DNA of 64,000 nt from Verrucomicrobiota bacterium (lineage in GTDB: Bacteria > Verrucomicrobiota > Verrucomicrobiia > Opitutales > Seribacteraceae). Under the pieces are notes generated by a model that saw only the letters and a list, made by a program, of their open reading frames with translations, had not been told where the DNA came from and did not search any database. The translations under genes were made by a program, and so were the position numbers. Positions within the stretch are counted from its first letter, which is position 1, and the number at the start of each line of letters is the position of its first letter. The stretch spans positions 1-64,000 of the forward strand of contig JAOLZO010000009.1 in NCBI GenBank assembly GCA_028343845.1, in the 5' to 3' direction. Below are positions 4,015-29,540 of the stretch, piece after piece.

Positions 4015-4061
4015 ATTTCGTTTATTTCGATCAAGCCAACGCCACTCCTCAGGTTCATTAT

Positions 4062-5420: not shown

Positions 5421-5423
5421 TGT

Positions 5424-10941: not shown

Positions 10942-10981
10942 GTTTACTAGATCGCTACCCATAAGATGGGTTACCAAAAAT

Positions 10982-14027: not shown

Positions 14028-14062
14028 CTTTCTATATACAGCCCTTAGCTCCCAAAAGTTAC
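14028..14062 (-). promoter_or_regulatory. Putative ECF-type promoter of the esterase gene
   Basis: On the minus strand GTAAC (14062-14058) overlaps the TAA stop of the upstream sulfatase gene. After 15 bases comes GCTGTATATAG (from 14042), and the esterase ATG at 14014 lies 28 bases from the start of GCTGT. Element and spacing match those before the sigma gene. It would let the distal half of the run be transcribed separately from the sigma operon. Confidence 0.5.
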
Positions 14063-15504
14063 GGTTTGACTGCCCGAAAGTGCGGGGCGTTTTTCTTGGG
14101 GAGCCATTTCTTAAGTTTGGCTTTGGCTTGGGCATACTTGGGATCCCCGGCCAGGTTGTTCCACTGGTGGGGGTCTTTGGCCGCCTCGTAGAGTTCTTCG
14201 CCCCCCTTGCCGTAATGAATGTAATGGAAGCGCTCCGAGCGAACGGCATGATTCGGGCCAAGCCAGTGAGGCGAGAGGGTGATCACTGTTGGATAGGGCC
14301 ACTTGGCCTTTGGATTGCGAACCAGAGGGGCGATGCTCCGACCTTCGTTCTTCGGGTTTTCCGGTAGTCCGCATAGATCGAGAAGAGTTGGATAGAGGTC
14401 GAGTAGGCTGACCGGTCGTGTGCAGGTTTTCGCCTGTAAATTTCCTCCCAGCTTCTCGGGCAGGTGGATGATGAGGGGGGTACGCGTGGTTTGTTCCCAA
14501 AGGGCCATCTTGCCGATTTTCTTTTCCCCGACGTCATAACCGTGGTCTCCCCACAAGACGACGATGGTATTGTCCTTGTGCGGACTCTTGCTCAAGGCAT
14601 CGAGCACGTGACCCACGCAAGCATCGGCAAAGGAATCGGCGGCCAGACAGGCTTGCACCGCTTCCTTCCATTTGCCGCTCTCCCGGATGTGCTTTACGTG
14701 ACGTTCGCCCATTCGTTTGCCGGCGGCGGGGACATCGTCGAAGTCATCCGGTTTGTGGGGCGGTAGCACGATATCTTCCAGTGGATGCAGGTCGAAGAAC
14801 TTCTGCGGGGCATACCAGGGGAGATGCGGCAGGTAGATTCCGCAACCGAGGAAAAAAGGTTGGTCGTGATCCCGTTGCAGGAACTGGGCCGCACCGTCTG
14901 CGGTCTTCCAATCGGGATTGGCCTCGATGGGATGATCGGTTGGTCCCCAGTCGATGAGGCGGGCGACGATCGGGTTGGATTCGAACTTGGAACGAAGCCC
15001 GTGCTTATAGCGTTCGCTCTTGGGGGGAAACGTGGCGCCGGTGCGGGTGGAATAGACGTGATCCCAGGCCTCCGCATCGGAGAACTTGCCATGGGCTTGG
15101 TGATAGAGTTTACCGCCGCCCCATGCGAGGTAGCCATGGTTGCGGAAATATTGAGGTAGGGTCACCCAATCCTTGTACTGGGGCATGTCGCGAAACCAGT
15201 TCAGGTTGCCGTAGATCCCGGTCGTCGATGGACGCAAGCCCATCATGACGGAGGTACGCGAAGGACTGCACAGCGGAGCGGCGCAATGGGCCTGTTCGAA
15301 GAGCACGCCTCGTTTGGCGAGGGCATCGATATTGGGTGTCTTGGCCTGTGGATGGCCTCCGAGACAACCGACCCAGTCGTTCAAATCATCAACTGCAATG
15401 AACAAGACGTTGGGTCGTTCACCGGCCTGTAGGAAAAGACATGCGAAGCTTAAGAGAAACAGGCATTTTGCCCTTCGCAGAATGCTCAGAACCGTCGAAA
15501 GCAT
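14059..15504 (-). CDS. Exported sulfatase, iduronate-2-sulfatase-like (Cys-type)
   Basis: A 481-residue protein with an N-terminal hydrophobic signal. RPNVLFIAVDDLNDWVGCLG contains the metal Asp pair and is the form typical of iduronate-2-sulfatase-like members; CSPSR lies at residues 79-83 (Cys79). Other blocks are GIYGNLNWFRDMP, YLPHLPWYAPQKFFD, VVLWGDHGYDVGEK and the C-terminal HWLGPNHAVRSERFHYIHYG. Subfamily similarity does not prove the substrate: in marine Verrucomicrobiota such enzymes often act on sulfated algal polysaccharides. It starts 3 bases after the PD40 propeller gene ends and is followed after 44 bases by the esterase, with which it could act on the same polymer. Confidence 0.9.
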   Translation of the reverse strand: MLSTVLSILRRAKCLFLLSFACLFLQAGERPNVLFIAVDDLNDWVGCLGGHPQAKTPNIDALAKRGVLFEQAHCAAPLCSPSRTSVMMGLRPSTTGIYGNLNWFRDMPQYKDWVTLPQYFRNHGYLAWGGGKLYHQAHGKFSDAEAWDHVYSTRTGATFPPKSERYKHGLRSKFESNPIVARLIDWGPTDHPIEANPDWKTADGAAQFLQRDHDQPFFLGCGIYLPHLPWYAPQKFFDLHPLEDIVLPPHKPDDFDDVPAAGKRMGERHVKHIRESGKWKEAVQACLAADSFADACVGHVLDALSKSPHKDNTIVVLWGDHGYDVGEKKIGKMALWEQTTRTPLIIHLPEKLGGNLQAKTCTRPVSLLDLYPTLLDLCGLPENPKNEGRSIAPLVRNPKAKWPYPTVITLSPHWLGPNHAVRSERFHYIHYGKGGEELYEAAKDPHQWNNLAGDPKYAQAKAKLKKWLPKKNAPHFRAVKP

Positions 15505-15507
15505 TGG

Positions 15508-16491
15508 CTACTTGGGGGTCGCTTCCCCATGGGGATAGCGGTAATCGGCCGAACCGTCCGTGGAGACTTTTTTCGTCTTTTGGGTCTTCAAATCATACAG
15601 GTAGAGAGCTCCGCCCGCCTGATACATGATGGCTGACTGGTCGCGCGTCCAGCGCGGGTAGGCAAACCAGACCTGCCTGCCCTCCTGATTGGCAAAGGGC
15701 TTGGCGTTGGTGATGGCACGGGTCTTAGCATCGAAATCGGCAAGGTACAAGGTACGACCGGGAACCTTGCGCTTGAATCCCTTTTGGTATTCGAAACAGA
15801 TTTTGGTCTGGTCGACCGACAAGCTCAAACGATCCAGGTACCCGCTTTTTGCCAGGTCGCATTTGATCTTCTCAAAAACCGGTTTGCCCTTGGGCTTGGG
15901 AGTCATCAGGAAGTAGCCCCTGCCCTGCTTGGGATGAGCGTGGTTGACCAAAATTCGCCCATCCGTCAGGCAAGTGTAGGCCCAAGTGTGCGTGCCCTTG
16001 CCGGTAAGGGCAATCTCCTCCCCTGGCTTGCCTCCGATCTTACCCGCCATGACGTGGTATCCCCCACCCTTCGGGTTCTTTCGGTTCCAGATGGGAGTGT
16101 TCGTCCCGTCCCGGGTCCAAGTCTGGTTGAAGTTGGTTTGCGTGGCATCGGTGATCTGATGAAAACCCGTGCCGTCTGCATTGATGATGCAGATCGCCGT
16201 TTTCCACATACCGACTTGAGGATGATTTTGGACACGCCGGAAAAAAACCAGCTTGTTTCCCGTCTTGGACCAGGAGGGTTTGAAATCCCAATGTCCCGTG
16301 GTGAGAGGCTTGCCCTCGGGTTCACCGAGCACGTTGACATGGATTTCCCCATCCTTGAAGTAAGCCGATCGGTGCCCCTCGGAAATCGACGGATGCTCGG
16401 ATTGACCTAAAACGGAAAGGCCCGAAATGACTGCCAGCGCCATTGCAACCAAGCTTCGGTTCGGAGATAATTTCGATGGATTGATTTTCAT
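15508..16491 (-). CDS. Exported TolB-like (PD40) beta-propeller protein
   Basis: A 327-residue protein with a long N-terminal signal (MKINPSKLSPNRSLVAMALA and onward). The remainder is a six-bladed propeller of the TolB/PD40 type: HWDFKPSWSKTGNKLVFFRR, ICIINADGTGFHQITD, YPRWTRDQSAIMYQAGGALY and LYDLKTQKTKKVSTDG. D-G-T-G followed by I/L-T is the PD40 hallmark. TolB-like verrucomicrobial proteins of this size often sit beside sulfatases and may bind polymers or oligosaccharides; nothing specific can be read here. The 101-base gap to the ankyrin-cytochrome gene upstream is the longest in this part of the run and could hold a promoter; a degenerate GCGTGTTTGTA-like box is present but the spacing does not match the conserved element. 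Confidence 0.8.
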   Translation of the reverse strand: MKINPSKLSPNRSLVAMALAVISGLSVLGQSEHPSISEGHRSAYFKDGEIHVNVLGEPEGKPLTTGHWDFKPSWSKTGNKLVFFRRVQNHPQVGMWKTAICIINADGTGFHQITDATQTNFNQTWTRDGTNTPIWNRKNPKGGGYHVMAGKIGGKPGEEIALTGKGTHTWAYTCLTDGRILVNHAHPKQGRGYFLMTPKPKGKPVFEKIKCDLAKSGYLDRLSLSVDQTKICFEYQKGFKRKVPGRTLYLADFDAKTRAITNAKPFANQEGRQVWFAYPRWTRDQSAIMYQAGGALYLYDLKTQKTKKVSTDGSADYRYPHGEATPK

Positions 16492-16592
16492 GTTCTTACA
16501 AACACGCTGGAGTAAGATAAGATGGCATCGAAATGGATGGATCAGAGAGAGGATGAAGGCTCAGCGCTTCTTTGGCTTGCTCCCGGATTCTT

Positions 16593-19500
16593 TCATCGGG
16601 GGCGCGTGGCCTTTGATCCGTCCTTCAGGAGCTTGAGCATGCGCGGGCGTGCCTTGCGAATTTCCTGCTGGTCGACCTTGTTCGAAGTAAGGCCGTTGAG
16701 GAAGCGGTACAAGCCGACCATCCCATCGTTCCATTCCCCTGAAACTGTGTCGATGGAGGACTCTCCCTTTTTGTTTCGAACACTTGTCTTTGCCCCCTTG
16801 GAAAGAAGGAGCTTGGCGATTTCAAACCGTCCCATCAAGGCCGCGACGTGCAAGGGGGTTCCGCCATCACGGTTCCTTGCGGTCGCGACGGCTCCCTTTT
16901 GGATAAGAAACCGAACATGCTCAAGCCGGCCGTGAAAGGCGGCCGAACTTAGGGGAAGGTCGGCGTCCTTGGTCAGCGCATTGACGTCGGCACCCAATTC
17001 CACCAAGCGCTTAAGTTCGGCCAGGTTTCCGGTGTAAATAGCTACCTCAATCTTTCCCCGCAACTGCTGTGAGTCTACCTTCTTATTCGAGACGTGAAAA
17101 ATGAAATCATTGGTGAACAAGCCATCGCGGTTCTGCAACTGAACAAAATGCATCCCTTCGGGCGGAAGGCTTGCCAATTCGATCTCGACCCGTTCATTGT
17201 CGCCTAATTTCACCGAACCCCTCGTCTTCCGGCCGTTTACGATGACAGAGGCTCCCTCCTTCAGGTGCCGACCGCTCACCACCATGGTCTTGTTCCGTTT
17301 GGACAGGACGGGGAACTTCTGAGTTCCGCGTTGTTTCTCAATCGGGCCTTCGGCCCAGATGCCGGGCTGCGGGTTGTCGTAATCAGCGTTCTTGCCATGT
17401 CTGCCCGTAAAAGTTCCCACGAACCGATTCGCATTCGCCAGTTCAAAAAGCCGATCCCGTGAAAACGCCTTTCGCTGTCCCGCAGTCTCGACGTAACTCC
17501 CTCCCTTCAGGGTTGAATCGTATTGCAGGATGACGGTCCGAGCCTTCCCTTCTTCGATGATCAGGCCTTCCGCTTGCAGGACGACCGCACCCTCGGAAGA
17601 GGAACGCTCGAGGGCATCAAGCAGATCATTGGACAGGCTGTCCTCCGTGGTCGAGGAATTGATGGTGACTTGACGACCCAAGGAACCGGAGAATCCGGTC
17701 GAGCCTTCCAACACCATGTCCCAAACGGGATCGAACCTCGACCGTCCGCCCCACGAGAACTTCCAGATCTTGCGCTCGGGAATTCCTTCCTCGGCTACCC
17801 GTCGGTAAAAGTCGAAGTCTATGATGTTAAGCCTGCCTTGGGGCAGAATCAGGAAACGATCGTAGGCTCCTCTCCAAGTCGGGGCCTCCATACCCGACCC
17901 CGGGGTGTTGGTACTGACCCAAAAGGGCATGCGGTGGCAATCTCCGCAGACATTGGGCTTTCGCTTGGTCGGGTCGTTATCTCCCTTGATGTGGAAGAGG
18001 TCGAAACCTTCCTCGGCCCTTGCGCTAAGCTCGTTGTCGTAGGCACGGCGCTGGGCCGGTGGGTAAGTCACTCCGAGCAGGAACTTGGAAAGTAATTCCC
18101 GATCCTTTGAACTCATCAAGCCTGCCTTACCTTCGTCGTTGATCGAAGCATCCTCCTCCAGTTTCATCGTCGAAGCCAAGCCGCCGTCGACCAGGTGACG
18201 GGTGGCGCTGACCGGGTCGTTCGGGTCACTGTTTGGCTTGACCGGCTTGTCAAGGCTCGCACTGTTTATACCTCCATAGGGATCACCGGGAATTCCGTCC
18301 CAGTGAAAGGGAGCCGTATCGCGCAGACCGCGAACGGGCATGGTCGAACGGGGCATGATTTGATTACCTCCCGTAACGATCGGAGTCTTCAAGACCCAAA
18401 GCAATTGATCGGAATGCCCGTCCGGGTGGCAACTGGCGCAGGAAAAAGACTTGGTGCTCGAAAAATCGGCTTGATTGAAGGCAATCCGACCAGCCTTGAA
18501 CTCGGGATGGGTGGGATCCTCCAAGGGAATCGTCCGGACCACTCGGAGGCTCCTGGGATTGGAAACGTCGAGCAGGGAAACCGAGTTCTCCACCGCATTC
18601 AAGACCCATGCCCGCTTGGGCTTGCCTCCGTGAGCGGGCGAAAGAGCAATTCCGCGGGGAACGGCCCCGACCTTAACCCGTCCCAGAACTTCGCCGCTCA
18701 CTGCATCCATCGAGAAAACCTTGTCCGAACCCGCTGCCGAAACGAAGAGTGTGGAATCGTCCCCGCTCACCTCTATGGCAAAGGGTGTGGCCAAGGCCAT
18801 CCCATCCGTCGGGTTTTCGGGGGGCAAGGGTTCGAGATCGAGAAACTCGGGCTTGCGGGCTTTCCCGCCCTCAAAGCGAACCCGGGTAACCTGGTTGAGA
18901 AAAGCCCGGTTGCCCAGCTCCTTGAGCCCGTGCTTTTTGGTTCCGGCCAGGCCGTTTACCTCGTTCCTGGCATCGGTCTGGGCGACGAAGACTGTGCCCT
19001 TGGAGTCCAACGTCAGTCCATAGAGCAAGGTACCAAGGGTATCGACGGTCTGAATCAGCTTGTCGGTCTTCACATCGAATACAAACAAGTCCCGGTCGGG
19101 AACGCGGGGATGCTTCACAATATCGGTAACGTGCCCCAAGGACAGAATGTTATTTTTGGCAATGGAATGCTCGTGGGCATTAAAGGTAACGAGTTTGCCA
19201 TCGATCTTATACCCGCCCGAGAGCTGGGTCTTGTTGTTCGACTCGAAGGGGATGACGTAAAGCCTGTCGTTGCGAACCATGATGGCTCGCGGATCCTGAG
19301 CCCGGATCGGCAAGCTCTTGGTCACTTTTCGGGAGACGACATCCACAACAGCGATCTTGTTTTCAGAGGAAAGCGCGACATAAGCCTTCTGGTTGTTGGC
19401 AAAGGCGATTCCCACGGGCTCGTCAAAGCGGGTCGCCTTGGTCTTCGGGTCAATATCTTGAACAGTCGCGACAACGTGCATGAAGGTGGGCTTCGACTGA

Positions 19501-19802
19501 TCCAGATCGATCACGTTGACCGAATCGGAAACATGATTGGACACCCAGAGTTCCCTTCCGTCCGGTCGCAGGGCAAGGCTGACTGGATCAATCCCGACGG
19601 GAATGCGACGAAGTATGCGGTCGGAATTGGCATGCAGAACGTCGATCGTGTCGCAGGGCGTATTGGCCACGAAAACGTAATCCCCGAGCGCAACGATAGG
19701 CCGGGCATGAGGGCTGAGAAAGGACGGATTACCTATTTCCCTCGGTGCGGCGACCAAGGAAACGTTCAGCAACGCAAGCAGTATTAGGCAAAGGGTTCTC
19801 AC
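16593..19802 (-). CDS. YVTN beta-propeller / di-haem cytochrome / IPT-like / ankyrin-repeat fusion protein
   Basis: A 1069-residue exported protein starting with GTG, overlapping the upstream stop as GTGA. Domains in order: a YVTN propeller at about 30-420 (PIVALGDYVFVANTPCDTID, GRELWVSNHVSDSVNVIDL, GIALSPAHGG); a MauG/peroxidase-like region with haem motifs CASCH at 455-459 and CGDCH at 619-623; and a DTAPFHWDG motif near 496 that is typical of propeller-cytochrome proteins. An IPT/TIG-like beta domain (MVVSGRHLKEGASVIVNGRK) follows, and three ankyrin repeats close the protein at about 945-1045 (LAELKRLVELGADVNALTKD, DGGTPLHVAALMGRFEIAKL). Ankyrin repeats on an exported cytochrome are unusual. 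It probably transfers electrons in the periplasm or at the surface; substrate unknown. Confidence 0.8.
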   Translation of the reverse strand: MRTLCLILLALLNVSLVAAPREIGNPSFLSPHARPIVALGDYVFVANTPCDTIDVLHANSDRILRRIPVGIDPVSLALRPDGRELWVSNHVSDSVNVIDLDQSKPTFMHVVATVQDIDPKTKATRFDEPVGIAFANNQKAYVALSSENKIAVVDVVSRKVTKSLPIRAQDPRAIMVRNDRLYVIPFESNNKTQLSGGYKIDGKLVTFNAHEHSIAKNNILSLGHVTDIVKHPRVPDRDLFVFDVKTDKLIQTVDTLGTLLYGLTLDSKGTVFVAQTDARNEVNGLAGTKKHGLKELGNRAFLNQVTRVRFEGGKARKPEFLDLEPLPPENPTDGMALATPFAIEVSGDDSTLFVSAAGSDKVFSMDAVSGEVLGRVKVGAVPRGIALSPAHGGKPKRAWVLNAVENSVSLLDVSNPRSLRVVRTIPLEDPTHPEFKAGRIAFNQADFSSTKSFSCASCHPDGHSDQLLWVLKTPIVTGGNQIMPRSTMPVRGLRDTAPFHWDGIPGDPYGGINSASLDKPVKPNSDPNDPVSATRHLVDGGLASTMKLEEDASINDEGKAGLMSSKDRELLSKFLLGVTYPPAQRRAYDNELSARAEEGFDLFHIKGDNDPTKRKPNVCGDCHRMPFWVSTNTPGSGMEAPTWRGAYDRFLILPQGRLNIIDFDFYRRVAEEGIPERKIWKFSWGGRSRFDPVWDMVLEGSTGFSGSLGRQVTINSSTTEDSLSNDLLDALERSSSEGAVVLQAEGLIIEEGKARTVILQYDSTLKGGSYVETAGQRKAFSRDRLFELANANRFVGTFTGRHGKNADYDNPQPGIWAEGPIEKQRGTQKFPVLSKRNKTMVVSGRHLKEGASVIVNGRKTRGSVKLGDNERVEIELASLPPEGMHFVQLQNRDGLFTNDFIFHVSNKKVDSQQLRGKIEVAIYTGNLAELKRLVELGADVNALTKDADLPLSSAAFHGRLEHVRFLIQKGAVATARNRDGGTPLHVAALMGRFEIAKLLLSKGAKTSVRNKKGESSIDTVSGEWNDGMVGLYRFLNGLTSNKVDQQEIRKARPRMLKLLKDGSKATRPR

Positions 19803-20503
19803 TCGAAATTCAATCCTTTCTTCGGTTTGTAAGTGAAGCTTACGTTCTTTAATCCGTCAACGGTGACTTGGATGGTTTGTTTGTTTTCACCAAAGGACTC
19901 GTGCCAAGTGGCCAAAACGTATTCGCCGGGCGGAAGATTCTTGATGGTAAATCGGCCTTGCTCGTCAGTAACGGCGAAGAAGGGATGCTCCATTACGAAA
20001 ATAAACGCCCGCATCCAGCGGTGGTAGTCACAGCGCAACTCGATTGGGCCTTCCTTCTCACTGAAACGCTTCAAGCGATCAGGCGTACCGGCTGGTTGAG
20101 CGACGTTAAAGGGCCGATTTTCCTGCGAGAGAGAGCGCACGTTATGAATGATGGGATCGCTGTTGCGCATGGCGAATTCCTGGCCGACGAACAAGCCCTG
20201 TACGCGCGGACGGAACATGGATCGTTGCTGGTCGAGCAAGGCCGCCTTTTTAGGCGCCGGGTAGGTTTTGCTAGCGGGCAGTCCTTTTCGGATATAGACA
20301 AAAACGTTCTGGATTTCGCCTTTGGCGCTGACCAGTTCCACCTCGTCTTGCGGATACGGGCGGCCTGCGTAGAGCTTGCGGCTTTCGGGGGTAAGCTGTA
20401 GCGGCGGACGCTTGGGTTGCGGGCCATCGAGCTTGATGATACCGGAGATATCCGCGGCAATCGCAGACGCGGTCGAAAGGAGAAATAAAGCAAGGAGGCG
20501 CAT
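19799..20503 (-). CDS. Exported cupredoxin-like protein with carboxypeptidase-regulatory-like domain
   Basis: A 234-residue protein from the ATG at 20503 (MRLLALFLLSTASAIAA signal peptide), 2 bases after the previous gene's stop. The frame is open further upstream, but without a leader. It opens with ISGIIKLDGPQPKRPPLQLT, then NVFVYIRKGLPASKTYPAPK, and then DPIIHNVRSLSQENRPFNVA and LRCDYHRWMRAFIFVMEHPF. The His, Cys, His and Met in these last two blocks are arranged as in blue-copper (cupredoxin) sites. The end, FTIKNLPPGEYVLATWHESF, is a carboxypeptidase-regulatory-like strand pair. Such proteins are often encoded beside cytochrome genes, as here, and may pass electrons. Its stop overlaps the GTG of the fusion cytochrome gene. 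Confidence 0.8.
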   Translation of the reverse strand: MRLLALFLLSTASAIAADISGIIKLDGPQPKRPPLQLTPESRKLYAGRPYPQDEVELVSAKGEIQNVFVYIRKGLPASKTYPAPKKAALLDQQRSMFRPRVQGLFVGQEFAMRNSDPIIHNVRSLSQENRPFNVAQPAGTPDRLKRFSEKEGPIELRCDYHRWMRAFIFVMEHPFFAVTDEQGRFTIKNLPPGEYVLATWHESFGENKQTIQVTVDGLKNVSFTYKPKKGLNFE

Positions 20504-20505
20504 CG

Positions 20506-22443
20506 TTATTTCCCGTTTTTGGCTACGTATTCCATGATCCGTACAAAAGATTGACCGGCATTGGGCATATCCGGGTCGGCCTTGCGTTTCTCCTGCCATA
20601 AAATATGGATACGGTGTTTTTGTGGGTCGGTCAAATTCTTCATTCGTGCATCGACGTATGGCTGGTGTTTGCCGTTGAGATAGGCCTCGGGCAGATCGGT
20701 CTTATGAATCTTTTGCAACAGCTTGGCATTCGAGCCAGTGTAGGTAACCTTCCGGGGTTGCTCGTAGGTGAGCTTGCTACGGTCAGGCATATAACCCTTG
20801 AGCTTGATACCGCCTGAGTCGCCAAGGTCGTTGGGTTCAATCTTGATGATCGCCCCGTAACCGGTCTCCATGTGGCGCGAGGGGCCGCTGGTGGGTGTCC
20901 ATACGTTGCCATCATCGTCAAACTCGATTTCTCGGGTGTAACTAACACGGTTGGGCAGTGGGTAGGTTACGAGCATCTCGGTCTTTGGATTGAATCGGTG
21001 AATGGTGTCGTTGCCCGTCCCACAGATCCACACGTGCCCATTGGGAGCGACGTTGAGAGCGTAGGGGATTTGGTTGTCCTTGTCAGGCAGATCGTAGACA
21101 AGCCATTCCTCGGTATCGGGATCGAACTTCCCAAATACCCCTGAAGCGAAGCCCGGCACCCAGATGATGCCGTCGGGCGCCACGTGCAATCGCCTTGGTC
21201 CGCGGAAAGGTGGGTTCCATTCCTTGACGTCGCCGTCGGGCTTGCTCGGATCGATACGTCCAATTCGGTTGCCGTTGAGTTTGCTGTACCAAATCATGCC
21301 GTCGATTGGCGAGTAGTCGATGCCGTAGGGCGTGATACCTTTACTCTCTCCTTTACCGGCGGCGACGGCTTGGTTGGCGCTCAAAAGATGGTATTCCTTC
21401 ACTTCCTTGGTTTTGGGATGAATCCAGAAGACGGAGTTCCGACCGGCGTCCGTATACCATATGAGTCCCTCGGGATCCTTTGGGTTGATCCGTAAGGTGT
21501 GCGGATACCCGCCTCTTTTCGCGGGAGCCTCCGCACTGCTGTATATCTCAATCTCTTTATTATGGATGTCGTACTTTGCCATCTGGCCTGAGGCGCACAT
21601 GGTGACCCACATGTGGCCGTCGTTATCCGGCTCAATGGAATGCGCTCCGTAAGAGCCACGCGGGAATTTTTTGTAAACCTGTTTGTCGGTTTTAGTATCC
21701 ACAGTCACAATATAATTCTTAGTTATATTTACGGCATAGATCAATCGACCATCCGGGCTGAGATCGATGTCATGGTACTGCGACTCGTAGCGTTTGCCCA
21801 TCTCCCACCAGGTGATCTTCGCCTTGGTGGCTGCCCCAGTAGGAGGGGATGGTGGCGCATACTTCGGCCACTTGTCGACGGCATCCCCTGTGTAAGTGTC
21901 CATGATGCGCTTTACGATGGTGCGCTTGGTATGCGGGTAGAGGGCGCCAAAGCCGTTCATGCGACGGATCATGGTTTCCCAGTCCACAGGTTCTTCCGGT
22001 GTGCGGAAGCCCACCGTGCCAACCTGGTGGCAGTAGGTGCAGTACATCTTGAAGTTCAGCTTGTCCCGCATGTCATCAAATTTGAGCATGCCGAATGCGC
22101 TATCGGCCGTACGTTGGCGCTCCAGTTTCCAGCCGGTGGCATTCGTCATCTTGATTTCGATGCCTGTTGAGCCGGCGGTGATATCGTAAAGCAAAACGTC
22201 GATCAGGCCCTTTTGCCGGGCGCGTACTCGATAATCCTTTTCGCGCAGGTCGTCGATTACATAGGTACCGTCGGCAGCGGTAAATACGCCCGAGGCCTTG
22301 CGGTTTTCCGTATCGTGAGCGGAAACGAACACGCCGCCAACCCCTATGCCATCTTTTGTGACCTTGCCACGAATTTCGTTAGCCTTCGCCAACGAAACCG
22401 ACAACGCGAAGGCTAAGAGAGAAAGAATTATTTTTTGTTTCAT
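20506..22443 (-). CDS. Streptogramin-lyase-like beta-propeller with haem motif and CarboxypepD_reg domain
   Basis: A 645-residue exported protein from the ATG at 22443 (MKQKIILSLLAFALSVSLAK). Residues about 22-100 are a carboxypeptidase-regulatory-like domain (NEIRGKVTKDGIGVGGVFVS). A haem motif CTYCH lies at 135-139 within FKMYCTYCHQVGTVGFRTP. Residues about 200-560 are a Vgb (virginiamycin B lyase)-type propeller: PYGIDYSPIDGMIWYSKLNG, NRIGRIDPSKPDGDVKEWNP, VAPNGHVWICGTGNDTIHRF. The true Vgb enzyme has no haem and is cytoplasmic, so lyase activity is not implied. The last 73 residues form the module shared with the sulfatase at 9097-10941. One base separates it from the cytochrome gene upstream and two from the cupredoxin gene. 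Confidence 0.8.
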   Translation of the reverse strand: MKQKIILSLLAFALSVSLAKANEIRGKVTKDGIGVGGVFVSAHDTENRKASGVFTAADGTYVIDDLREKDYRVRARQKGLIDVLLYDITAGSTGIEIKMTNATGWKLERQRTADSAFGMLKFDDMRDKLNFKMYCTYCHQVGTVGFRTPEEPVDWETMIRRMNGFGALYPHTKRTIVKRIMDTYTGDAVDKWPKYAPPSPPTGAATKAKITWWEMGKRYESQYHDIDLSPDGRLIYAVNITKNYIVTVDTKTDKQVYKKFPRGSYGAHSIEPDNDGHMWVTMCASGQMAKYDIHNKEIEIYSSAEAPAKRGGYPHTLRINPKDPEGLIWYTDAGRNSVFWIHPKTKEVKEYHLLSANQAVAAGKGESKGITPYGIDYSPIDGMIWYSKLNGNRIGRIDPSKPDGDVKEWNPPFRGPRRLHVAPDGIIWVPGFASGVFGKFDPDTEEWLVYDLPDKDNQIPYALNVAPNGHVWICGTGNDTIHRFNPKTEMLVTYPLPNRVSYTREIEFDDDGNVWTPTSGPSRHMETGYGAIIKIEPNDLGDSGGIKLKGYMPDRSKLTYEQPRKVTYTGSNAKLLQKIHKTDLPEAYLNGKHQPYVDARMKNLTDPQKHRIHILWQEKRKADPDMPNAGQSFVRIMEYVAKNGK

Positions 22444-22444
22444 A

Positions 22445-23140
22445 TTAATTTTGTGAGGTATCCAAAACCTTGGCTTGAATAATGAGATCCCGAAAATTTT
22501 TGTCTTCCACGTCATCAAGCAGCTTGAGGAACGCCTCGAGGTGAGTGAGATCGTCTTTGTCCAATTTGATCGACTGATAATCCTTCGGCGCGCCGGGTTT
22601 CTGAGCTGCGACGAGTTTGGCGCGCAGCGCTTTGGAGATATCCACCTTGCGCTTGTTCATGTTGCGCAGGGAAGGAGTAGGCAGCGCCTTACCGCCCTCG
22701 CTCAACGCGTGATTTTTGAGGTCGGTAAATTTTTCAGGTACGTGACAGACGATGCAGTTGCCGTTTCTCACCTCCGCGTCGGTGCTCAGGAAGGTCTTGT
22801 AACCGAGATACGCTTCGCGGTTCATGCCTTTGGGAAGCTTGATCAGGACCCGCCCCTCTTGATTGGCCAACAGGCTGTAAACGCGAGCCGTAAAATCGAG
22901 TATCTCCTCATCTTCCTCCACTTTATCCGGTATGCGGTTCAAGTATACGAAGGCATCGTAGACCGAGCGATTGGCGCTCGCCAGCCGATGAATCTTGGTC
23001 TTCTCCTCAATACTAGTCGCTTTGGGCTTGGCTTGCCCAAAGCCATCGGGGGACGCGACCGCAACGAAGCTCAGACAGATAGCCAATGAGAAGGCGTTTC
23101 TGCTCACCGTTTTCGGGGAAATGTCCGGACGTCCCTTCAT
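22445..23140 (-). CDS. Small exported c-type cytochrome
   Basis: A 231-residue protein whose ATG overlaps the FecR stop (ATGA at 23137-23140), which decides the start; the frame is open a further 41 codons upstream within the FecR gene. An N-terminal signal (about residues 14-36, AFSLAICLSFVAVASPDGFG) is followed by helices and a single haem motif CIVCH at 129-133 in RNGNCIVCHVPEKFTDLKNH. The region TPSLRNMNKRK and later KLDKDDLTHLEAFLKLLDD resemble the second half of cytochrome-c-peroxidase (MauG-like) domains, with which it shares the TPSLRN phrase. It is the first of three haem-motif genes downstream of the sigma/FecR pair. Confidence 0.8.
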   Translation of the reverse strand: MKGRPDISPKTVSRNAFSLAICLSFVAVASPDGFGQAKPKATSIEEKTKIHRLASANRSVYDAFVYLNRIPDKVEEDEEILDFTARVYSLLANQEGRVLIKLPKGMNREAYLGYKTFLSTDAEVRNGNCIVCHVPEKFTDLKNHALSEGGKALPTPSLRNMNKRKVDISKALRAKLVAAQKPGAPKDYQSIKLDKDDLTHLEAFLKLLDDVEDKNFRDLIIQAKVLDTSQN

Positions 23141-25068
23141 TTGTCGGTTGGGGTCGTCAGCGCGATTTCGGAAACCTGCAAGCCGACCGGATCCCACAGC
23201 GTGTGGCACCAGACGCCCTTGACGATCAACCCGTAGGGAGTCTTGGGCAAAGAGTCCGCCCATTGGGCAAGAGCGGGATCCAGATGATAGTCGCTTAGGT
23301 TCAAGACGACCTCGAAAGGTTCCTTGAGCTCGGCCACTTCGGGTATTTTCTTAAGTTCTTCCAAGCGGTCTTCAAGGTGCTTGGTCTCGCCGGCATGGCC
23401 TGCCATAGCGGCATCATGCCTGGCGACGAGATCTTTGACGTGGATTTCAACTTCTCTCTTGTCGGGATTTTTATTGGCCTCGGCGATCTTGACTTCCAGA
23501 TCGCGCTTGGCCTTAGCTGACCATGCTTTATTGCCTGCAAGCACTTTCTCCAGATTCCTGTGTTTTTCAACCAGATCGTTCTTGGCCTCGGCCAAGCGGC
23601 CTTCAAGATTCTTGGCCTCGCCGGCATGGGCAGTCAGAAAGGCATTATGCTTGTCGATGAGGATTTCGGTCTGCTTTTCAACTTCATCAAAGCCACGTTC
23701 GCCGGGTGAAGGCCCGTTTTTCCTTAACTCCGCGATCTTGACATCCAGATCGCGCTCGGCCTTAGCTGCCTCTGCTTTATGGCCTTCAAGCCATTTCTCG
23801 ACTCTCCTGTATTCCTCAACTGGATCAGGTTTATCAGGTTTTTCAACCTCGGGGCGAGGCTTGCCAGCCGGCTGACCGGCACCCGCTTGAAGACCTCCGC
23901 TCTGGAATTCTTCGGAGGGAAGGATGGTCTGAAAGCGCCCGGCGAAATCACCGTTTTCGCGACTTAGAGTCATACCAAACCAAATACGGTGACTGGAAGC
24001 GATCTTCCCTCGAACGCGAATTTTGGTTTCAGGTTGCAAGATCACCGGGGGATGGTCGCCGCTGGAAACCGGCATGCTCAAGGTGTGAATGGTTCTTTGC
24101 TTTCGGTCGTCCTTGGCGGGCAAGGTATAAGGCACGGTCTTCAGGTGAGCCGGTTCGGATCCGTTGGCCGGCATCCATTCGCCGTGGTTGCGTTTTCTGC
24201 CGTTTTCCAAATGGCTTTGCCAAAGGGTAACGGACTCCGGCATTTTTTCGGGTACGAGTTCGCAATCCAGGGCAGCGACTACCCGGTGCTTGGCGGACAC
24301 TTCGGCGGTGCTGCCGTCACTGAGTCGCGTCGCTTGCACCTTCCCTTCGTTAACCGTGAGCGTGGAGGAGAATAACTCGGCATCCACGCTGAATCGCGTG
24401 CCCATCACCTCGAACAATGCCGTTCGGGTAGAAACCAGCATCGGTTTGCCTTCGGGTTGCGGCACGACGTTGGCGGAAAAGCTCCCCTCCCTCAGACGCA
24501 GTTCCTTTTGTCCGAGATCGGAAATGGTCAGCATCGAGTTGCCAGAGATCACGACTTGCGAACCATCGTTGAACCTCAGTTCAAACCAAGCGTCAGGCGC
24601 CATGCCCTCGATGGTTCCGCCAAATAGTTGGGAACCTGCTTGCAGGTTGCGATTCACTTGACCACCATTGCCCGTCCAAAGCAGAGGACCGCTTAATTTC
24701 GTAATTTGCGCGATTGGCAATTCGGGCTTTGCTTCCGGTTGCTGTCCTGAAAACTGGATGAAGAGTCCGATCACCACCACGGCCGCCACCGCCCATCCCC
24801 AATTTCCGAAAGGAATGGAGACTGGTTTGGATTCCTCCTTGGTGTCGGGATCGATTACGGCGTTGAGCGGGGAGAAGTTCGGGACACACAGACGTTCCTC
24901 CAAGGCCCCATGAAGGTCGAGGTATTCATGGTAGAACTCCCGAGCCCCGGGTTCGGCTTGCAGGATTTCGTTCAGACGGGTCTTGTCTGCAACCGTGAGA
25001 CCATCGTCCACCAGTTTGCCGAGCAGGGCATCCAGTTCATTTTTCCATAATTTTTCTTCTTCTTTCAT
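23137..25068 (-). CDS. FecR-domain membrane protein, probable anti-sigma partner, with coiled-coil repeats
   Basis: A 643-residue protein. The cytoplasmic N-terminus (residues 1-85, MKEEEKLWKNELDALLGKLV) has the acid-rich helical form of an anti-sigma domain. One membrane segment follows at about 90-106 (WGWAVAAVVVIGLFIQF), then a FecR domain at about 120-265 with ITKLSGPLLWTGNGGQVNRN, GSQVVISGNSMLTISDLGQK and TALFEVMGTRFSVDAELFSS. Residues about 285-395 are a beta-rich segment, and about 423-573 are two long helical repeats rich in Lys, Glu and Ala, likely coiled coil. Its ATG overlaps the stop of the chimeric micro-ORF, which in turn overlaps the sigma stop, so the three are coupled. The expected role is to hold the sigma factor until an outside signal arrives; no TonB receptor lies nearby. 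Confidence 0.85.
   Translation of the reverse strand: MKEEEKLWKNELDALLGKLVDDGLTVADKTRLNEILQAEPGAREFYHEYLDLHGALEERLCVPNFSPLNAVIDPDTKEESKPVSIPFGNWGWAVAAVVVIGLFIQFSGQQPEAKPELPIAQITKLSGPLLWTGNGGQVNRNLQAGSQLFGGTIEGMAPDAWFELRFNDGSQVVISGNSMLTISDLGQKELRLREGSFSANVVPQPEGKPMLVSTRTALFEVMGTRFSVDAELFSSTLTVNEGKVQATRLSDGSTAEVSAKHRVVAALDCELVPEKMPESVTLWQSHLENGRKRNHGEWMPANGSEPAHLKTVPYTLPAKDDRKQRTIHTLSMPVSSGDHPPVILQPETKIRVRGKIASSHRIWFGMTLSRENGDFAGRFQTILPSEEFQSGGLQAGAGQPAGKPRPEVEKPDKPDPVEEYRRVEKWLEGHKAEAAKAERDLDVKIAELRKNGPSPGERGFDEVEKQTEILIDKHNAFLTAHAGEAKNLEGRLAEAKNDLVEKHRNLEKVLAGNKAWSAKAKRDLEVKIAEANKNPDKREVEIHVKDLVARHDAAMAGHAGETKHLEDRLEELKKIPEVAELKEPFEVVLNLSDYHLDPALAQWADSLPKTPYGLIVKGVWCHTLWDPVGLQVSEIALTTPTDK
23350..23802 (-). 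repeat. Two in-frame about 70-residue repeats in the FecR protein
   Basis: Residues 423-497 and 505-573 of the FecR protein align. VEKWLEGHKAEAAKAERDLD pairs with LEKVLAGNKAWSAKAKRDLE, and HAGEAKNLEGRLAEAKND pairs with HAGETKHLEDRLEELKKI. The units are diverged, so the duplication is old and retained. Confidence 0.75.
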
Positions 25069-25286
25069 ATTCCGTCCTCTTGCATGCGGTTTTGAATGTA
25101 GCCCATCAATTGTCGGCGCATCACTTCGATGGTGTAAGTTCCCTCCTTCAAGAACTCCCGAGCCCCGGGTTCGGTTTGCAGGATCTCGTTCAACCGCGCC
25201 TCGTCTCCAACCGTGACATCCTCGTCCAGCAGTTTGCCGAGCAAGGCATCCAGTTCATCTTTCCATAACTTTTCTTCTTCTTTCAT
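25065..25286 (-). CDS. Chimeric 73-residue ORF: FecR N-terminus joined to sigma-factor C-terminus
   Basis: Residues 1-46 (MKEEEKLWKDELDALLGKLL, TRLNEILQ-like helix, TEPGAREF) copy the first 45 residues of the FecR protein that follows. Residues about 53-73 (TIEVMRRQLMGYIQNRMQED) copy the end of the sigma factor that precedes it (RRQLLGCIQNRMKEDGI). It therefore arose by tandem duplication of about 220 bases across the sigma/FecR gene junction. Both junctions keep a 4-base ATGA overlap, so the ribosome can pass sigma, micro-ORF and FecR in sequence. The peptide contains most of the presumed anti-sigma domain without the membrane segment, so it could act as a soluble sigma-binding peptide or be a passive coupling relay. 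Function is inferred only. Confidence 0.7.
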   Translation of the reverse strand: MKEEEKLWKDELDALLGKLLDEDVTVGDEARLNEILQTEPGAREFLKEGTYTIEVMRRQLMGYIQNRMQEDGI

Positions 25287-25798
25287 ATTCCGTCCTCTTT
25301 CATGCGGTTTTGAATGCAGCCTAGCAATTGTCGGCGCAGGCGATGCAGTTTCACCTTCATCGCCCCAATCGTGCTACCTACGTCTTCGGCGATTTTCTCC
25401 ATGGTACGTTCTCCTTGGTATCGCCATTCAAGAAGTTCCCGGTTTTTCGAAGACATACCTTTGAGGCAATGACTCAGGTGAGCCACCCGATCCGATTGAG
25501 CGGACGATCTGCCATCCTCATCCGGACCAATCATGGCATCCACTTCGTCGGTGAACACCAAGCGTTCGCGAACCTGCGTTTTTCGATAGGCCATCACTTC
25601 GTAGTTGGCCACGGTCATCGCCCAAGCCTTGAAATTGGTTCCCAGTTCGTAGTTGTCTGCCTTACGGCACAAAACCAAATTGGTTAACTGCAAGACCTCA
25701 CGGGCTTGTTCGCGATCGGCCAATCGCTTGAACAAAAACCCGAAAAGCCGCTGCTGCACCTGGGTCAGCTCAAGAATAAATTCTTCGGAAAGCTCCAT
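25283..25798 (-). CDS. ECF RNA polymerase sigma factor, Rhodopirellula/Verrucomicrobium type
   Basis: A 171-residue ECF sigma factor. Region 2 is at about 10-85 (LTQVQQRLFGFLFKRLADRE, LGTNFKAWAMTVANYEVMAY) and region 4 at about 110-165 (MSSKNRELLEWRYQGERTME, VGSTIGAMKVKLHRLRRQLL). The F-K-A-W-A and N-Y-E-V-M-A-Y phrases are typical of the sigma-70 subfamily named after Rhodopirellula and Verrucomicrobium. The start MELSEEF at 25798 is chosen because the pseudogene copy at 29.5 kb keeps the same ATG; a TTG two codons upstream is possible. It is followed by overlapping micro-ORF and FecR genes. Its own promoter has the GTAAC-N15-GCTGT element also found before four other genes, which suggests autoregulation. 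Confidence 0.92.
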   Translation of the reverse strand: MELSEEFILELTQVQQRLFGFLFKRLADREQAREVLQLTNLVLCRKADNYELGTNFKAWAMTVANYEVMAYRKTQVRERLVFTDEVDAMIGPDEDGRSSAQSDRVAHLSHCLKGMSSKNRELLEWRYQGERTMEKIAEDVGSTIGAMKVKLHRLRRQLLGCIQNRMKEDGI

Positions 25799-25813
25799 AA
25801 GCAATAAAAGTCA

Positions 25814-25848
25814 TACTAAATATACAGCATAAATTAAAGATGGGTTAC
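25814..25848 (-). promoter_or_regulatory. Putative autoregulated ECF promoter of the sigma gene
   Basis: Minus strand: GTAAC (25848-25844), 15 bases, GCTGTATATTTAG (from 25828). The sigma ATG lies 30 bases beyond the start of GCTGT. The upstream half continues as GTAACCCATC, identical to the copy before the GH2 gene. GTAAC fits an ECF -35 box and GCTGTATA the -10 region. Confidence 0.6.
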
Positions 25849-25951
25849 GAAAAACTTTTCTAAAAAAAGCTCAGCCAACAGAAAGGCCGTGGACGAAGCA
25901 TTTTTCATAAAAGATATAATTTGCACTCAAACTTCAATCGCCCGCCTGTTC

Positions 25952-28228
25952 CTACTCATACACCAGCGAGACATCGACATACTGCCCCCCGAGAGTGTTT
26001 TGGCAGTGAATGGCGAGTGTGTTTTTGCCTTTCTTCAATGATGCCTGCGCGGCATCCGAAATTTTCCTTAGTTCGTAGTGCGCGGTATACCCGTCCAGTT
26101 TGGCAGCCACTACACCGTTGACGTAGATGGTGGGGTTTTCATCCCAAAAGACGTTCAGCAGCAATTTTCCTTTGATCGGATCGTAGTCGAATGAGGTCCT
26201 GATCCAGACCCGGGGCGTATTCCATATCGTTTTGATATTGGCGTTTGGTGTGCCGGGCGCCCCCAGGCCCGCAGCGCCCTGTTTCCACTTGTGATCGTCG
26301 AAACCAGGTTTCATCCAGTCGCCCACTGGTTCGGTCGTTGTGTAACGAACCGGAACCTTGTTTTGCGCCGCCACGGGCAAGGCCGGCTTGCCTAACAATT
26401 TTGCCGCGTAGAGTTTTTCATGCAAACGTCTCAATTCTTCGGCCGGGAACTTTTGCACTTCTCGATCGTATGTCATGAGACCGTTCACCTCCGCCTCGAC
26501 ATCGGTTGTCTGGGTGTAAATTCCTCCGGCCAGACCGGCTTGCTTGAGCCGTATCATTCGCTGAATTGATTCCCGGTAGCGACCGAGCAGTTCCTCCTTG
26601 CTCTTGGGCAGACCGCCATATCCCCAATTTTTCGCTCCGGGATTCCACACGTGTTTCTTGTCCACGACGAATCCGTGCCCGCCGAATTCTCCGACGACTT
26701 TGAGGTAATCCTTGAATCGCGAATCGTATACCGGAAAGTGGGGGTGGGGATAACTGTGGTGGTCAACCACGTCGCCAACCGGCCAGAAGTTGCCACCGCT
26801 GGCGACGTTGACGAGTCGTGATGGATCGTAGGCCACGGTCCACTTCCCGACTTCAAGTGTTCGATGCTGTCCCCAAGCTTCGTTGAAGGGAACCCAGCTC
26901 ACAATGCTCGGGGCGTTGTAGAGGTAATCGATCATTTCCTTGAGTTCATACATGAACTGTTCGTGCGCTTCGTCGGGCCAGTCTTTGTCCTTGGGATTGG
27001 GTTGGAGTCGTGTCCATTTCGGGTGCGGAGTTCCGGAAACTTGGTCCTGCCAGATCATCATGCCCACCCGATCGCAGTAAGCATAATACCGCCGCGGTCG
27101 CACTTTGATGTGATTACGAATGCAATTGAACCCCGCGGCTTTCAGGTAATCGATGTCGAAAACCATTGCCTCGTCCGAAGCGGGTGTCAGCAGACCATCC
27201 GGGAACCATCCCTGATCGAGCGGGCCCAGATGAAAGATCTCTTTGCCATTCAGTGTGAACCGCCAGTTTCCGTTGGCATCCAAATGCTTCCCGACACTAC
27301 GGATACCTACGTAGGACTCGACCACGTCGATCGTTTGACCGCGCAGGATCAGTTCGACCTTCAGGTCGTATAGGTTTGGTTTGTCTGGTGACCAGAGTTG
27401 AGGTGCTTTCACCGTCAAGCGGGTGCCTTTGACGGAACCTGTAACCGATCCAACCTCCCGGCCTTCAAATGAAGCACTGATCTTAACGCTCGGCACCATG
27501 TCGGCGTCTCCATCGATCTCCGTCTTTACGTCAATGGTTCCCTTGGTCGCATCCGAATTGATCCGGAGGCTTTTGACATAGGTTCTCGGTACGGATTCCA
27601 GCCACACGGTCTGCCAGATGCCAGAGACACGGGTATAGTAGATTCCGCCAGGTCGGCGCACCTGCTTGCCACGCAATTGATAATCGGCGGTTTCGTCGAT
27701 GACTTTCAGACGGACGGTGTTCTCACCTTCGGTCACTGCCTTGGTGACGTCGAATGAGAATGGTGTGTTTCCGCCCTTGTGCGTGCCCACGCGCTGCCCG
27801 TTGATCCAAACCTCGCACTGGTAATCCACCGCTTCGAAGTGAAGCAGTTTCCGGCTGTTCTTTTTCGAAACGTCAAAGGTCCTTTGGTACCAGAGTTCTT
27901 CGTTCGGTTGAAGAATGCGGCCTACCCCGGACAGACTGGACTCGATGCAATAAGGAACCAGAATTTTCCCAACCCAAGTTTCCGGGGCGGTATTATTTTC
28001 CGGAACGGAGCGTTGCCGCACGGTATAATCCCAAAGACCATTGAGGTTCTGCCAATCCTCACGCACCATCTGCGGTCGGGGGTATTCTCGCCATGCATTA
28101 TCGGGCGTAACCTTTTGGGCCCATCTCGTCTTGATCTTGTCGCCAACTGGTTTCCAGTCGGCCCATGCGAGGCAACTCGCTAAAAGAAAAGCCAACAGAG
28201 AGGCTGCAAAACGGACGGGTGGTTTCAT
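25952..28228 (-). CDS. Exported glycoside hydrolase family 2 (beta-galactosidase/glucuronidase-like)
   Basis: A 758-residue protein from the ATG at 28228 (MKPPVRFAASLLAFLLASCL signal). The frame stays open 22 codons upstream, but those codons come from the duplicated sigma leader. Domains: a GH2 sugar-binding domain (NGLWDYTVRQRS, EELWYQRTFDV, CEVWINGQRVGTHKGG), an immunoglobulin-like middle domain, and a TIM barrel with FNCIRNHIKVRPRRYYAYCD, the acid/base Glu in WVPFNEAWGQH (Glu450) and the nucleophile Glu in VVGEFGGHGF (Glu514). A C-terminal beta domain (VYVNG-like TIYVNGVVAAKLDGYTAHYE) could bind carbohydrate. Specificity is not clear. It is monocistronic, with its own ECF-type promoter element, and fits a role in breaking down the same polymer as the sulfatases and esterase. 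Confidence 0.9.
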   Translation of the reverse strand: MKPPVRFAASLLAFLLASCLAWADWKPVGDKIKTRWAQKVTPDNAWREYPRPQMVREDWQNLNGLWDYTVRQRSVPENNTAPETWVGKILVPYCIESSLSGVGRILQPNEELWYQRTFDVSKKNSRKLLHFEAVDYQCEVWINGQRVGTHKGGNTPFSFDVTKAVTEGENTVRLKVIDETADYQLRGKQVRRPGGIYYTRVSGIWQTVWLESVPRTYVKSLRINSDATKGTIDVKTEIDGDADMVPSVKISASFEGREVGSVTGSVKGTRLTVKAPQLWSPDKPNLYDLKVELILRGQTIDVVESYVGIRSVGKHLDANGNWRFTLNGKEIFHLGPLDQGWFPDGLLTPASDEAMVFDIDYLKAAGFNCIRNHIKVRPRRYYAYCDRVGMMIWQDQVSGTPHPKWTRLQPNPKDKDWPDEAHEQFMYELKEMIDYLYNAPSIVSWVPFNEAWGQHRTLEVGKWTVAYDPSRLVNVASGGNFWPVGDVVDHHSYPHPHFPVYDSRFKDYLKVVGEFGGHGFVVDKKHVWNPGAKNWGYGGLPKSKEELLGRYRESIQRMIRLKQAGLAGGIYTQTTDVEAEVNGLMTYDREVQKFPAEELRRLHEKLYAAKLLGKPALPVAAQNKVPVRYTTTEPVGDWMKPGFDDHKWKQGAAGLGAPGTPNANIKTIWNTPRVWIRTSFDYDPIKGKLLLNVFWDENPTIYVNGVVAAKLDGYTAHYELRKISDAAQASLKKGKNTLAIHCQNTLGGQYVDVSLVYE

Positions 28229-28267
28229 AAGAATTTTCCCAAAGGGAGGGATTCTTCCCAAGGGGGA

Positions 28268-28330
28268 GAAAGCTCCATAAGCAATAAAAGTCATATTAAA
28301 TATACAGCGAAAGTTATAGATGGGTTACGA
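28268..28330 (-). repeat. 63-bp copy of the sigma-gene promoter and first codons
   Basis: Positions 28268-28330 match 25788-25850 with no gaps and 5 mismatches by eye. The copied block includes the GTAAC and GCTGTATATTTA boxes, the leader and the first 11 bases of the sigma CDS (ATGGAGCTTTC). In the copy those codons run straight into the GH2 upstream region and have no sigma gene behind them. Confidence 0.9.
28294..28328 (-). promoter_or_regulatory. Putative ECF-type promoter of the GH2 gene
   Basis: Minus strand: GTAAC (28328-28324), 15 bases, GCTGTATATTTAATATG (from 28308). It lies within the 63-bp copy of the sigma promoter region. The GH2 ATG is about 75 bases downstream. Confidence 0.6.
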
Positions 28331-28339
28331 TAAATCTAG

Positions 28340-28402: not shown

Positions 28403-28795
28403 TTACGCTTTGGTCTTGGCAGCATGATACGCCTCAATCCCATCCTCGATGGTTTTCTTGAATAGTACGGGAGGGCAGGGTTTCGTGAGAATGCTGAACA
28501 TTTTGCCTGTCTGCAAGGCGGTCGCTCCCCCGAACTCGAAATCGGCATCCACCGTGAGGAGGACCGTGCTGACACAGAGATCCAGTTCCTTTACTTTGGC
28601 CAAAAAGGTCGCCCCATCCATCCCTGGCATTCGCATTTCGGCAGTCACCACGGAGAAAGGACCTTCCTTCTCAAAAACTTCCAACCCCTCCGACCCGCTG
28701 TTGGCTGTGGACATTTCGAATACCTTGCGTAAGTGAAGGTGCAGAGCTTTCAGAATCGCTTCCTCGTCATCCACACAAAGTATTCTTCGGTTCAT
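28403..28795 (-). CDS. Single-domain response regulator with Glu at the phosphoacceptor position
   Basis: A 130-residue receiver domain and nothing else. RRILCVDDEEAILKALHLHL holds the acidic pair (Asp9, Asp10); LLTVD supplies the conserved Thr and LTKPCPP the conserved Lys. The phosphoacceptor site reads VVTAEMRMPGMDG: the residue aligned with the usual Asp, four before MP-G, is Glu53. Glu at this position often mimics the phosphorylated state, so the protein may be constitutively active or regulated otherwise. No DNA-binding or enzymatic output domain is attached and no histidine kinase lies nearby. It sits alone between the GH2 upstream region and a small exported protein gene. Confidence 0.85.
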   Translation of the reverse strand: MNRRILCVDDEEAILKALHLHLRKVFEMSTANSGSEGLEVFEKEGPFSVVTAEMRMPGMDGATFLAKVKELDLCVSTVLLTVDADFEFGGATALQTGKMFSILTKPCPPVLFKKTIEDGIEAYHAAKTKA

Positions 28796-28844
28796 AACCC
28801 AACAAGAAACCTATTCACCCGCGCCCACTTCAGATTGGAATCAG

Positions 28845-29231
28845 CTATTTATTTTTCGCAATCTTTGCGACAATGAGAACAAAGCGCTGCTCGCCTGGAT
28901 CGGTTTCGAAAGCCAGACCGCTTGCCTCTACTTTCTCCGCTTTTGGGTTTTCCTTGGCGAATGTCTTGGCGACCTTTCCCATGAGGAAGTACATGCGGGA
29001 CTCGCCACCCTTAAACTTCTTATGTGTCAGCAGGACGGGGGCGCCTGAAGAGTGATGTTTCAAAGCGCCGACGACAGTGACTTCTTCACCTTTTTCCTTT
29101 TTGTCTTTCTTTGCTTTGTCGGCCTTTTCGGTCTTGGCGGGTTTCGCTGGGTCGGTTTCCTTCTTCTTGTCGGCGTAGGCGCCGAAGGCTAGAATGAATC
29201 CCGCGAGGAGGGTGAGAATGAGTTTTTTCAT
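28845..29231 (-). CDS. Small Lys-rich exported protein of unknown function
   Basis: A 128-residue protein from the ATG at 29231 (MKKLILTLLAGFILAFGAYA signal peptide; a longer open frame upstream lacks a leader). Residues about 21-52 are nearly all Lys, Glu, Asp, Ala and Pro, a flexible linker. The folded part (VTVVGALKHHSSGAPVLLTH, FKGGESRMYFLMGKVAKTFA, LAFETDPGEQRFVLIVAKIA) looks like a small beta-rich domain. I do not recognise a family. It lies directly downstream of the broken sigma copy and may have been under its control before the sigma gene decayed. Confidence 0.65.
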   Translation of the reverse strand: MKKLILTLLAGFILAFGAYADKKKETDPAKPAKTEKADKAKKDKKEKGEEVTVVGALKHHSSGAPVLLTHKKFKGGESRMYFLMGKVAKTFAKENPKAEKVEASGLAFETDPGEQRFVLIVAKIAKNK

Positions 29232-29273: not shown

Positions 29274-29540
29274 TTAAATAAACGTAAACGACTGCGATCT
29301 TGGCGCGCAAGTGGTCGCGCACCTGATTTTTTCCGATAGGCCATTACCTCGTAGTTGGCCACGGTCATCGCCCAGTCCTTGAAATTTGTTCCGGGCCGAG
29401 GACTTCCTGCAAAGCACGAGATTGGTTCGCTGCAAAACCTCACGGGCTTGTTCACGATCGGCCAATCGCTTGAACAGGAAGCCGAAAAGCCTTTGCTGCA
29501 CCTCAGTCAGCTCAAGAATAAATTCTTCGGAAAGCTCCAT
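29274..29540 (-). pseudogene. Frameshifted, truncated copy of the ECF sigma gene
   Basis: From the ATG at 29540 the frame encodes MELSEEFILELTEVQQRLFG and onward to TNLVLCRK, nearly identical to the sigma factor at 25283-25798. It then shifts: the second frame gives GTNFKDWAMTVANYEVMAYR, and a third gives NQVRDHLRAK, each matching the next part of the intact gene. Region 4 and the C-terminus are absent. At least two indels and the missing 3' half mean it cannot make a working sigma factor. Its promoter element and ATG are intact, so a short N-terminal peptide (region 2) could still be expressed. It records a gene duplication whose promoter diverged from the 63-bp pair. Confidence 0.85.

Follow-up and report, generated by a model that had tools for sequence, protein, structure and literature searches.

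Gene content of the locus

The window, by which we mean the whole 64,000-nucleotide stretch analyzed here (C97:1-64000), comes from an incomplete MAG (63.7% complete, 2.5 Mb assembly). The features that concern us are listed below, with P1 to P5 denoting candidate promoters.

2..730, minus strand: TolC-like outer membrane efflux gene, 5' part, ended by the contig end; behind P1
738..767, minus strand: candidate promoter P1, GTAAC-N15-GCTGTTTATA, 12 nt upstream of the TolC-like gene ATG
2686..14014, minus strand: operon behind P2; esterase (SASA), sulfatase, PSD3/4/5-PSCyt3, DUF1552 and two PQQ-propeller genes
14033..14062, minus strand: candidate promoter P2, GTAAC-N15-GCTGTATATA, 23 nt upstream of the esterase gene ATG
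14059..23263, minus strand: near-overlapping genes continuing from the FecR gene; carboxypeptidase-regulatory/Vgb, cytochrome/ankyrin, PD40 and sulfatase
23137..25066, minus strand: FecR-domain protein gene (PF04773, 5e-13), next downstream of the sigma gene
24933..25338, minus strand: partial tandem duplication of the sigma 3' end and FecR 5' end (188-nt repeat, 90%)
25283..25798, minus strand: ECF sigma gene, 171 aa, TIGR02989 (Rhodopirellula/Verrucomicrobium family)
25819..25848, minus strand: candidate promoter P3, GTAACCCAT-N11-GCTGTATATT, 25 nt upstream of the sigma gene ATG
25952..28294, minus strand: GH2 glycosidase gene, behind P4
28299..28328, minus strand: candidate promoter P4, a copy of P3 (91% over 67 nt), 9 nt upstream of the GH2 gene ATG
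28403..29231, minus strand: P5 unit; small lysine-rich gene (28845-29231) and response regulator receiver gene (28403-28795)
29321..29540, minus strand: truncated sigma copy with a frameshift (pseudogene), matching sigma residues 1-76 at 92% and then 74% identity
29557..29587, minus strand: candidate promoter P5, GTAAC-N16-GCTGTGTATA, 21 nt upstream of the ATG of the truncated sigma copy

The sigma protein belongs to the TIGR02989 family, scoring 134 bits against an NCBIfam cut-off of 124.55, and its two domains (Sigma70_r2 and Sigma70_r4_2) correspond to the ECF layout of regions 2 and 4 only in about 170 residues. The FecR-domain protein encoded beside it has about 85 residues followed by a single transmembrane segment predicted from hydropathy (residues ~85-108); this agrees with the adjacent gene, cytoplasmic amino terminus and one membrane segment expected of a membrane anti-sigma pair, and this protein is likely to be the anti-sigma factor. 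No TonB-dependent receptor with a signalling domain occurs near the pair among the annotated genes of 928-29540. The genome carries further, more distant sigma paralogs, and no description of a promoter or regulon for the TIGR02989 sigma family was found among the papers searched.

Copies of the sigma gene start occur in two places. Positions 29403-29540 duplicate the 5' part of the sigma gene with 87% identity, and the small gene that follows the truncated sigma copy is of a secreted type. The first codons of the GH2 protein (MTFIAYGAFS) derive from a copied sigma leader. At the sigma gene itself, a 14-codon out-of-frame reading frame (25814-25770, minus strand) begins at an ATG 16 nt before the sigma start, which it overlaps, and the GH2 gene begins with the copied version of this frame.

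The genes behind the candidate promoters bear out the targets named in a preliminary description of this DNA; they form an esterase/sulfatase/cytochrome operon, a GH2 gene and an efflux gene. The genes of the P2 operon are separated by -4 to 47 nt. The gene called TolC-like is 57-66% identical to genes of relatives whose full-length products are OEP-family proteins, encoded there in operons that continue with HlyD, ABC and MacB-like genes; these homologs confirm the TolC assignment of the preliminary description.

A two-box element upstream of five genes

On the minus strand of the window, GTAAC and GCTGT-N-TAT occur together at 767, 14062, 25848, 28328 and 29587, separated by 15 nt at the first four sites and by 16 nt at the last; the distances to the start codons listed above are counted from GCTGT. 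The two-box element reported earlier before five genes is thus present at all five, with the strand and spacing as described. Its second box had been given as GCTGT[AGT]TATA throughout, which is exact only at 767, 14062 and 29587; at 25848 and 28328 the region reads GCTGTATATT, without the final A of TATA, so that the box common to all sites is GCTGT-N-TAT. In addition, the second site had been placed at 14062-14042, and its two boxes in fact span 14062-14038.

Two further candidates were rejected. The half-site noted earlier before the sulfatase gene does contain GTAACCCATC, at position 10974, but this is a -35 half alone, with no -10 box and a matrix score of 13.4 that lies within noise. A sixth two-box match, overlooked when the sites were put at five, lies at 36142-36118 (minus strand) before an acyltransferase/ankyrin gene; it reads GTAAC-N15-GCTGT without TAT, scores 14.7, again at noise level, and is conserved in G020, a genome without the sigma factor. 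The G020 sequence is near-identical from GTAAC onward and unrelated upstream of it.

The full element is well beyond chance expectation in the window. The exact pattern has three matches against 0.00 expected in shuffles, and a scoring matrix trained solely on sites from other genomes ranks P1-P5 at the top, with scores of 24.6-29.8 against maxima of 9.9-17.6 in simulated sequences, although its training set holds orthologs of P1, P2 and P3 and the comparison is therefore not fully independent. Outside the window, pattern searches of the 2.5 Mb assembly gave four matches at a spacing of 15-16, of which three lie within long open frames; this corresponds to about 0.1 matches expected per 64 kb against six in the window. 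A genome-wide search had been proposed as a check on the preliminary description, and its outcome depends on the pattern: the strict motif, GTAACN{15,16}GCTGTNTAT, has no match in the assembly outside the window, whereas the loose pattern GTAACN{13,18}GCTGT shows no enrichment across the genome, with 18 matches versus 24 in the control, which leaves the extended motif as the informative one.

Real as they are, the five sites are not independent: P4 copies P3, the segments 25788-25854 and 28268-28334 sharing 91% identity across 67 nt, and P5 precedes a sigma duplicate. What had been counted as five matches represents about three independent lineages, one for P1, one for P2 and a third, derived from the sigma gene, for P3, P4 and P5.

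Conservation and distribution among relatives

Between diverged relatives the boxes are kept, and the spacer and flanks are not. Upstream of orthologous sigma genes, which come from Opitutia/Verrucomicrobia MAGs, the boxes are found in G028, G032 and G036, and G029 has GTACC in place of GTAAC. In particular, the G028 sigma ortholog (86% identical in amino acids) has GTAACCCAT, the 15-nt spacing and an intact GCTGT, while the 60 nt upstream is essentially unrelated to the window. The P1 ortholog in another genus (G029:C67) keeps GTAAC, GCTGTTTATAAAAT, TTTATAAAAT and the spacing, with only 9 of the 15 spacer positions identical. P2 has a counterpart in G028 (C39:1448), directly upstream of a sulfatase gene. 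P5 itself differs from its counterpart in G036, the two sharing mainly GTAACC-AT and GCTGT-N-TAT, although the sequences from the ATG of the truncated sigma copy onward are about 97% identical.

The distribution of the motif also follows that of the sigma gene. Close orthologs of the sigma gene occur in five of the 373 genomes of the order, namely our own genome, three in genus g4 and one in genus g3, all of them incomplete MAGs; none is found in the other 26 genomes of its own genus. The strict motif is present in all five (11 sites) and in 10 of the 368 genomes without an ortholog, at one site each (Fisher p = 5e-8), and within the family in 5/5 genomes with the ortholog versus 1/37 others. 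A control with the motif read backwards gave no match in the five. Sites ahead of sigma genes cannot be separated from mere linkage to the gene; when those beside sigma genes and their copies are excluded, the motif is found in 3/5 versus 10/368 genomes (p = 3e-4).

A sister sigma group in seven other genomes of the same genus is preceded by a distinct element, GTCAT-N15-GGTATAA, located 8-13 nt before the start codon (loci L036, L037, L038, L041, L042, L171, L172, L183 and L184). This group thus has its own pair of boxes with the same 15-nt spacing, which supports the view that such pairs are sigma-specific promoters.

A candidate ECF sigma regulon

We consider it highly probable (roughly 85%) that the five sites are promoters of the TIGR02989-type ECF sigma factor encoded at 25283-25798. 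In this view GTAAC(CCAT) would serve as -35 box and, 15-16 nt further on, GCTGT-N-TAT as -10 box, and the transcripts from P1-P5 would have very short leaders. The FecR-like transmembrane protein would keep the sigma factor membrane-bound, and a signal, for which a sulfated or esterified polysaccharide is the probable candidate, would free it. The free sigma factor would then activate its own operon through P3, the efflux gene through P1, the esterase-sulfatase-cytochrome-PQQ operon through P2, the GH2 gene through P4 and the response-regulator unit through P5. The best reading is a local regulon with self-activation that covers most genes of an island of about 30 kb and that, within the sequence available, appears limited to it.

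ECF promoters typically carry AAC in the -35 and CGT in the -10 box, and ECF genes generally autoregulate next to an anti-sigma gene (PMC3426412). The sigma gene studied here is likewise preceded by a two-box element with AAC in the -35 box (GTACC in G029) and a spacer of about 16 nt. Two of the points against the promoter assignment concern the sequence of the boxes themselves. The -10 box, GCTGTNTAT, has GCTGT/CTGTA where the textbook has CGT, a feature that is typical and not universal, the -10 box being variable among ECF groups and reading TGTT at one tested ECF41 promoter (PMC3426412). Also, GTAAC of P2 overlaps a stop codon, its TAA ending the upstream sulfatase gene. The single-sigma regulon with autoregulation that the preliminary description proposed is supported by the ECF geometry, the site before the sigma gene, the conservation across genera and the co-occurrence; on the other side, the sulfatase half-site drops out as a promoter, the regulon is confined to the island in the sequence available, and the link of the sites to the sigma factor is correlative.

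Housekeeping sigma-70 promoters, with the TATATT/TATAAA that follows GCTG as a standard -10 element and GTAAC as a coincidence, are an improbable explanation. They would account for the TATA-like hexamers immediately after GCTG (TATATT, TATATA, TATACA and TTATAA), but inspection by eye reveals no TTGACA-like -35 at the correct distance, and before the G028 sigma gene it is TAT that is shifted or lost (GCTGTTATTC) while GTAACCCAT and GCTGT are kept. Moreover, housekeeping promoters would not be restricted to genomes that have the sigma factor.

The matches might instead reflect shared descent alone, through local duplication of a sigma-leader segment without regulatory meaning, given the copied pair 25848/28328, the sigma duplicate that follows 29587 and the start regions common to 14062 and 10974; we regard this as very unlikely, since P1 and P2 match P3 in boxes and spacing with no flanks in common, the boxes outlast spacer and flanks in orthologs, and 29587 has both boxes although its surroundings differ from those of its 97%-identical relative in G036. 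Just as little weight falls on one or more different, related ECF sigma factors of overlapping specificity as the readers of these promoters. Such factors would fit the distant paralogs of this genome, the close counterpart of 36142 in sigma-less G020, and G031, where GTAAC-N15-GGGCTGT-type boxes (GTAACTGG..GGGCTGTA) precede an efflux operon in the absence of a close sigma ortholog, so that another sigma factor may read similar boxes there. But GTAAC-N15-GCTGT was not found in the paralog upstream regions listed, and the motif precedes every sigma ortholog (one with GTACC) and is rare elsewhere. The G031 exception, the main difficulty for the reading preferred here, could be explained by MAG incompleteness or by a second sigma factor. 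In genus g3 (L147, L148 and L149), GTAACTGG-N-GGCTGTA-type boxes occur before two efflux operons and a TonB-dependent receptor gene.

Comparison with known systems

The arrangement of a sigma factor with matching promoters is of an already known kind. The autoregulated ECF41 modules (PMC3426412) resemble the one proposed here in their two-box promoters, a spacing of about 15-16 nt and sites before both the sigma gene and neighboring targets. They differ in the boxes (-35 TGTCACA and -10 CGTC, against GTAAC and GCTGTNTAT here), in a partner that is a fused carboxy-terminal domain instead of a FecR-type protein, and in their targets, which here are sulfatase, esterase, GH2, planctomycete-type cytochrome and efflux genes. 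FecI/FecR cell-surface signalling (PMC9249621) is alike in that an ECF sigma gene is followed by one for a FecR-domain membrane protein; that system includes a TonB-dependent receptor, whereas none was found beside the pair here and the targets are degradative. Although the sigma factor scores above the TIGR02989 cut-off, the GTAAC/GCTGT element belongs specifically to a single small group of orthologs. Our analysis thus offers a concrete candidate promoter sequence and target list for one member of this family of Planctomycetes/Verrucomicrobia-type bacteria, with targets tied to the sulfatase/cytochrome clusters of likely marine polysaccharide degraders.

Possible growth of the regulon on a putative mobile island

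Parts of the window between 9.5 and 29.5 kb are 73-97% identical to contigs of genera g3 and g4, and 50-53 kb is closest to the genome's own genus (66-76%). Since the latter match places island and backbone on one contig, we rejected misbinning as the cause of the odd relationships. They are most simply read as an island of about 30 kb that was acquired horizontally.

Comparison of gene orders suggests how the regulon may have gained members. In G036 the order is truncated sigma gene, small gene, response regulator, promoter and sigma gene, with no GH2 gene between the last two; in the window, the GH2 gene lies between promoter and sigma gene and a second copy of the promoter and sigma start is present. 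Another promoter copy in G036, with a remnant of the sigma start, precedes a PSCyt2/PSD1 and DUF1501 operon. Similarly, P2 adjoins the sulfatase gene in G028, and in the window an esterase gene lies between them, leaving the broken half-site at 10974, which begins like P3 (GTAACCCATCTT). Because both the GH2 gene here and the operon in G036 lie behind a duplicated promoter and sigma start, the regulon seems to grow in part by promoter copying, with the direction of the events suggested by few genomes.

Tentatively, at somewhat less than even odds, the locus may be a mobile degradation island with its own ECF sigma factor, its regulon enlarged as the sigma promoter and first sigma codons were copied before inserted genes (the GH2 gene here, the PSD1/DUF1501 operon in G036 and the response-regulator unit). 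If so, promoter copying would put new genes under sigma control on arrival, and intermediate steps of a regulon gaining members through promoter duplication would be visible. Horizontal regulatory transfer, or promoter capture (PMC9944727), is alike in that regulatory segments swap gene partners by recombination; in contrast, what would be copied here is the sigma factor's own promoter and gene start, before neighbors within one island. This visible copying before added genes is what stands out.

The window contains no full tRNA gene. A tRNA-Gly-like 3' fragment (T-arm and acceptor strand, plus strand) lies at 28360-28379 between the response regulator gene and P4, and also at the matching place in G036:C404; it is possibly an integration scar. 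Further along, tandem and dispersed repeats of 57-115 nt occur at 40128-41194, within and around a 432-aa reading frame.
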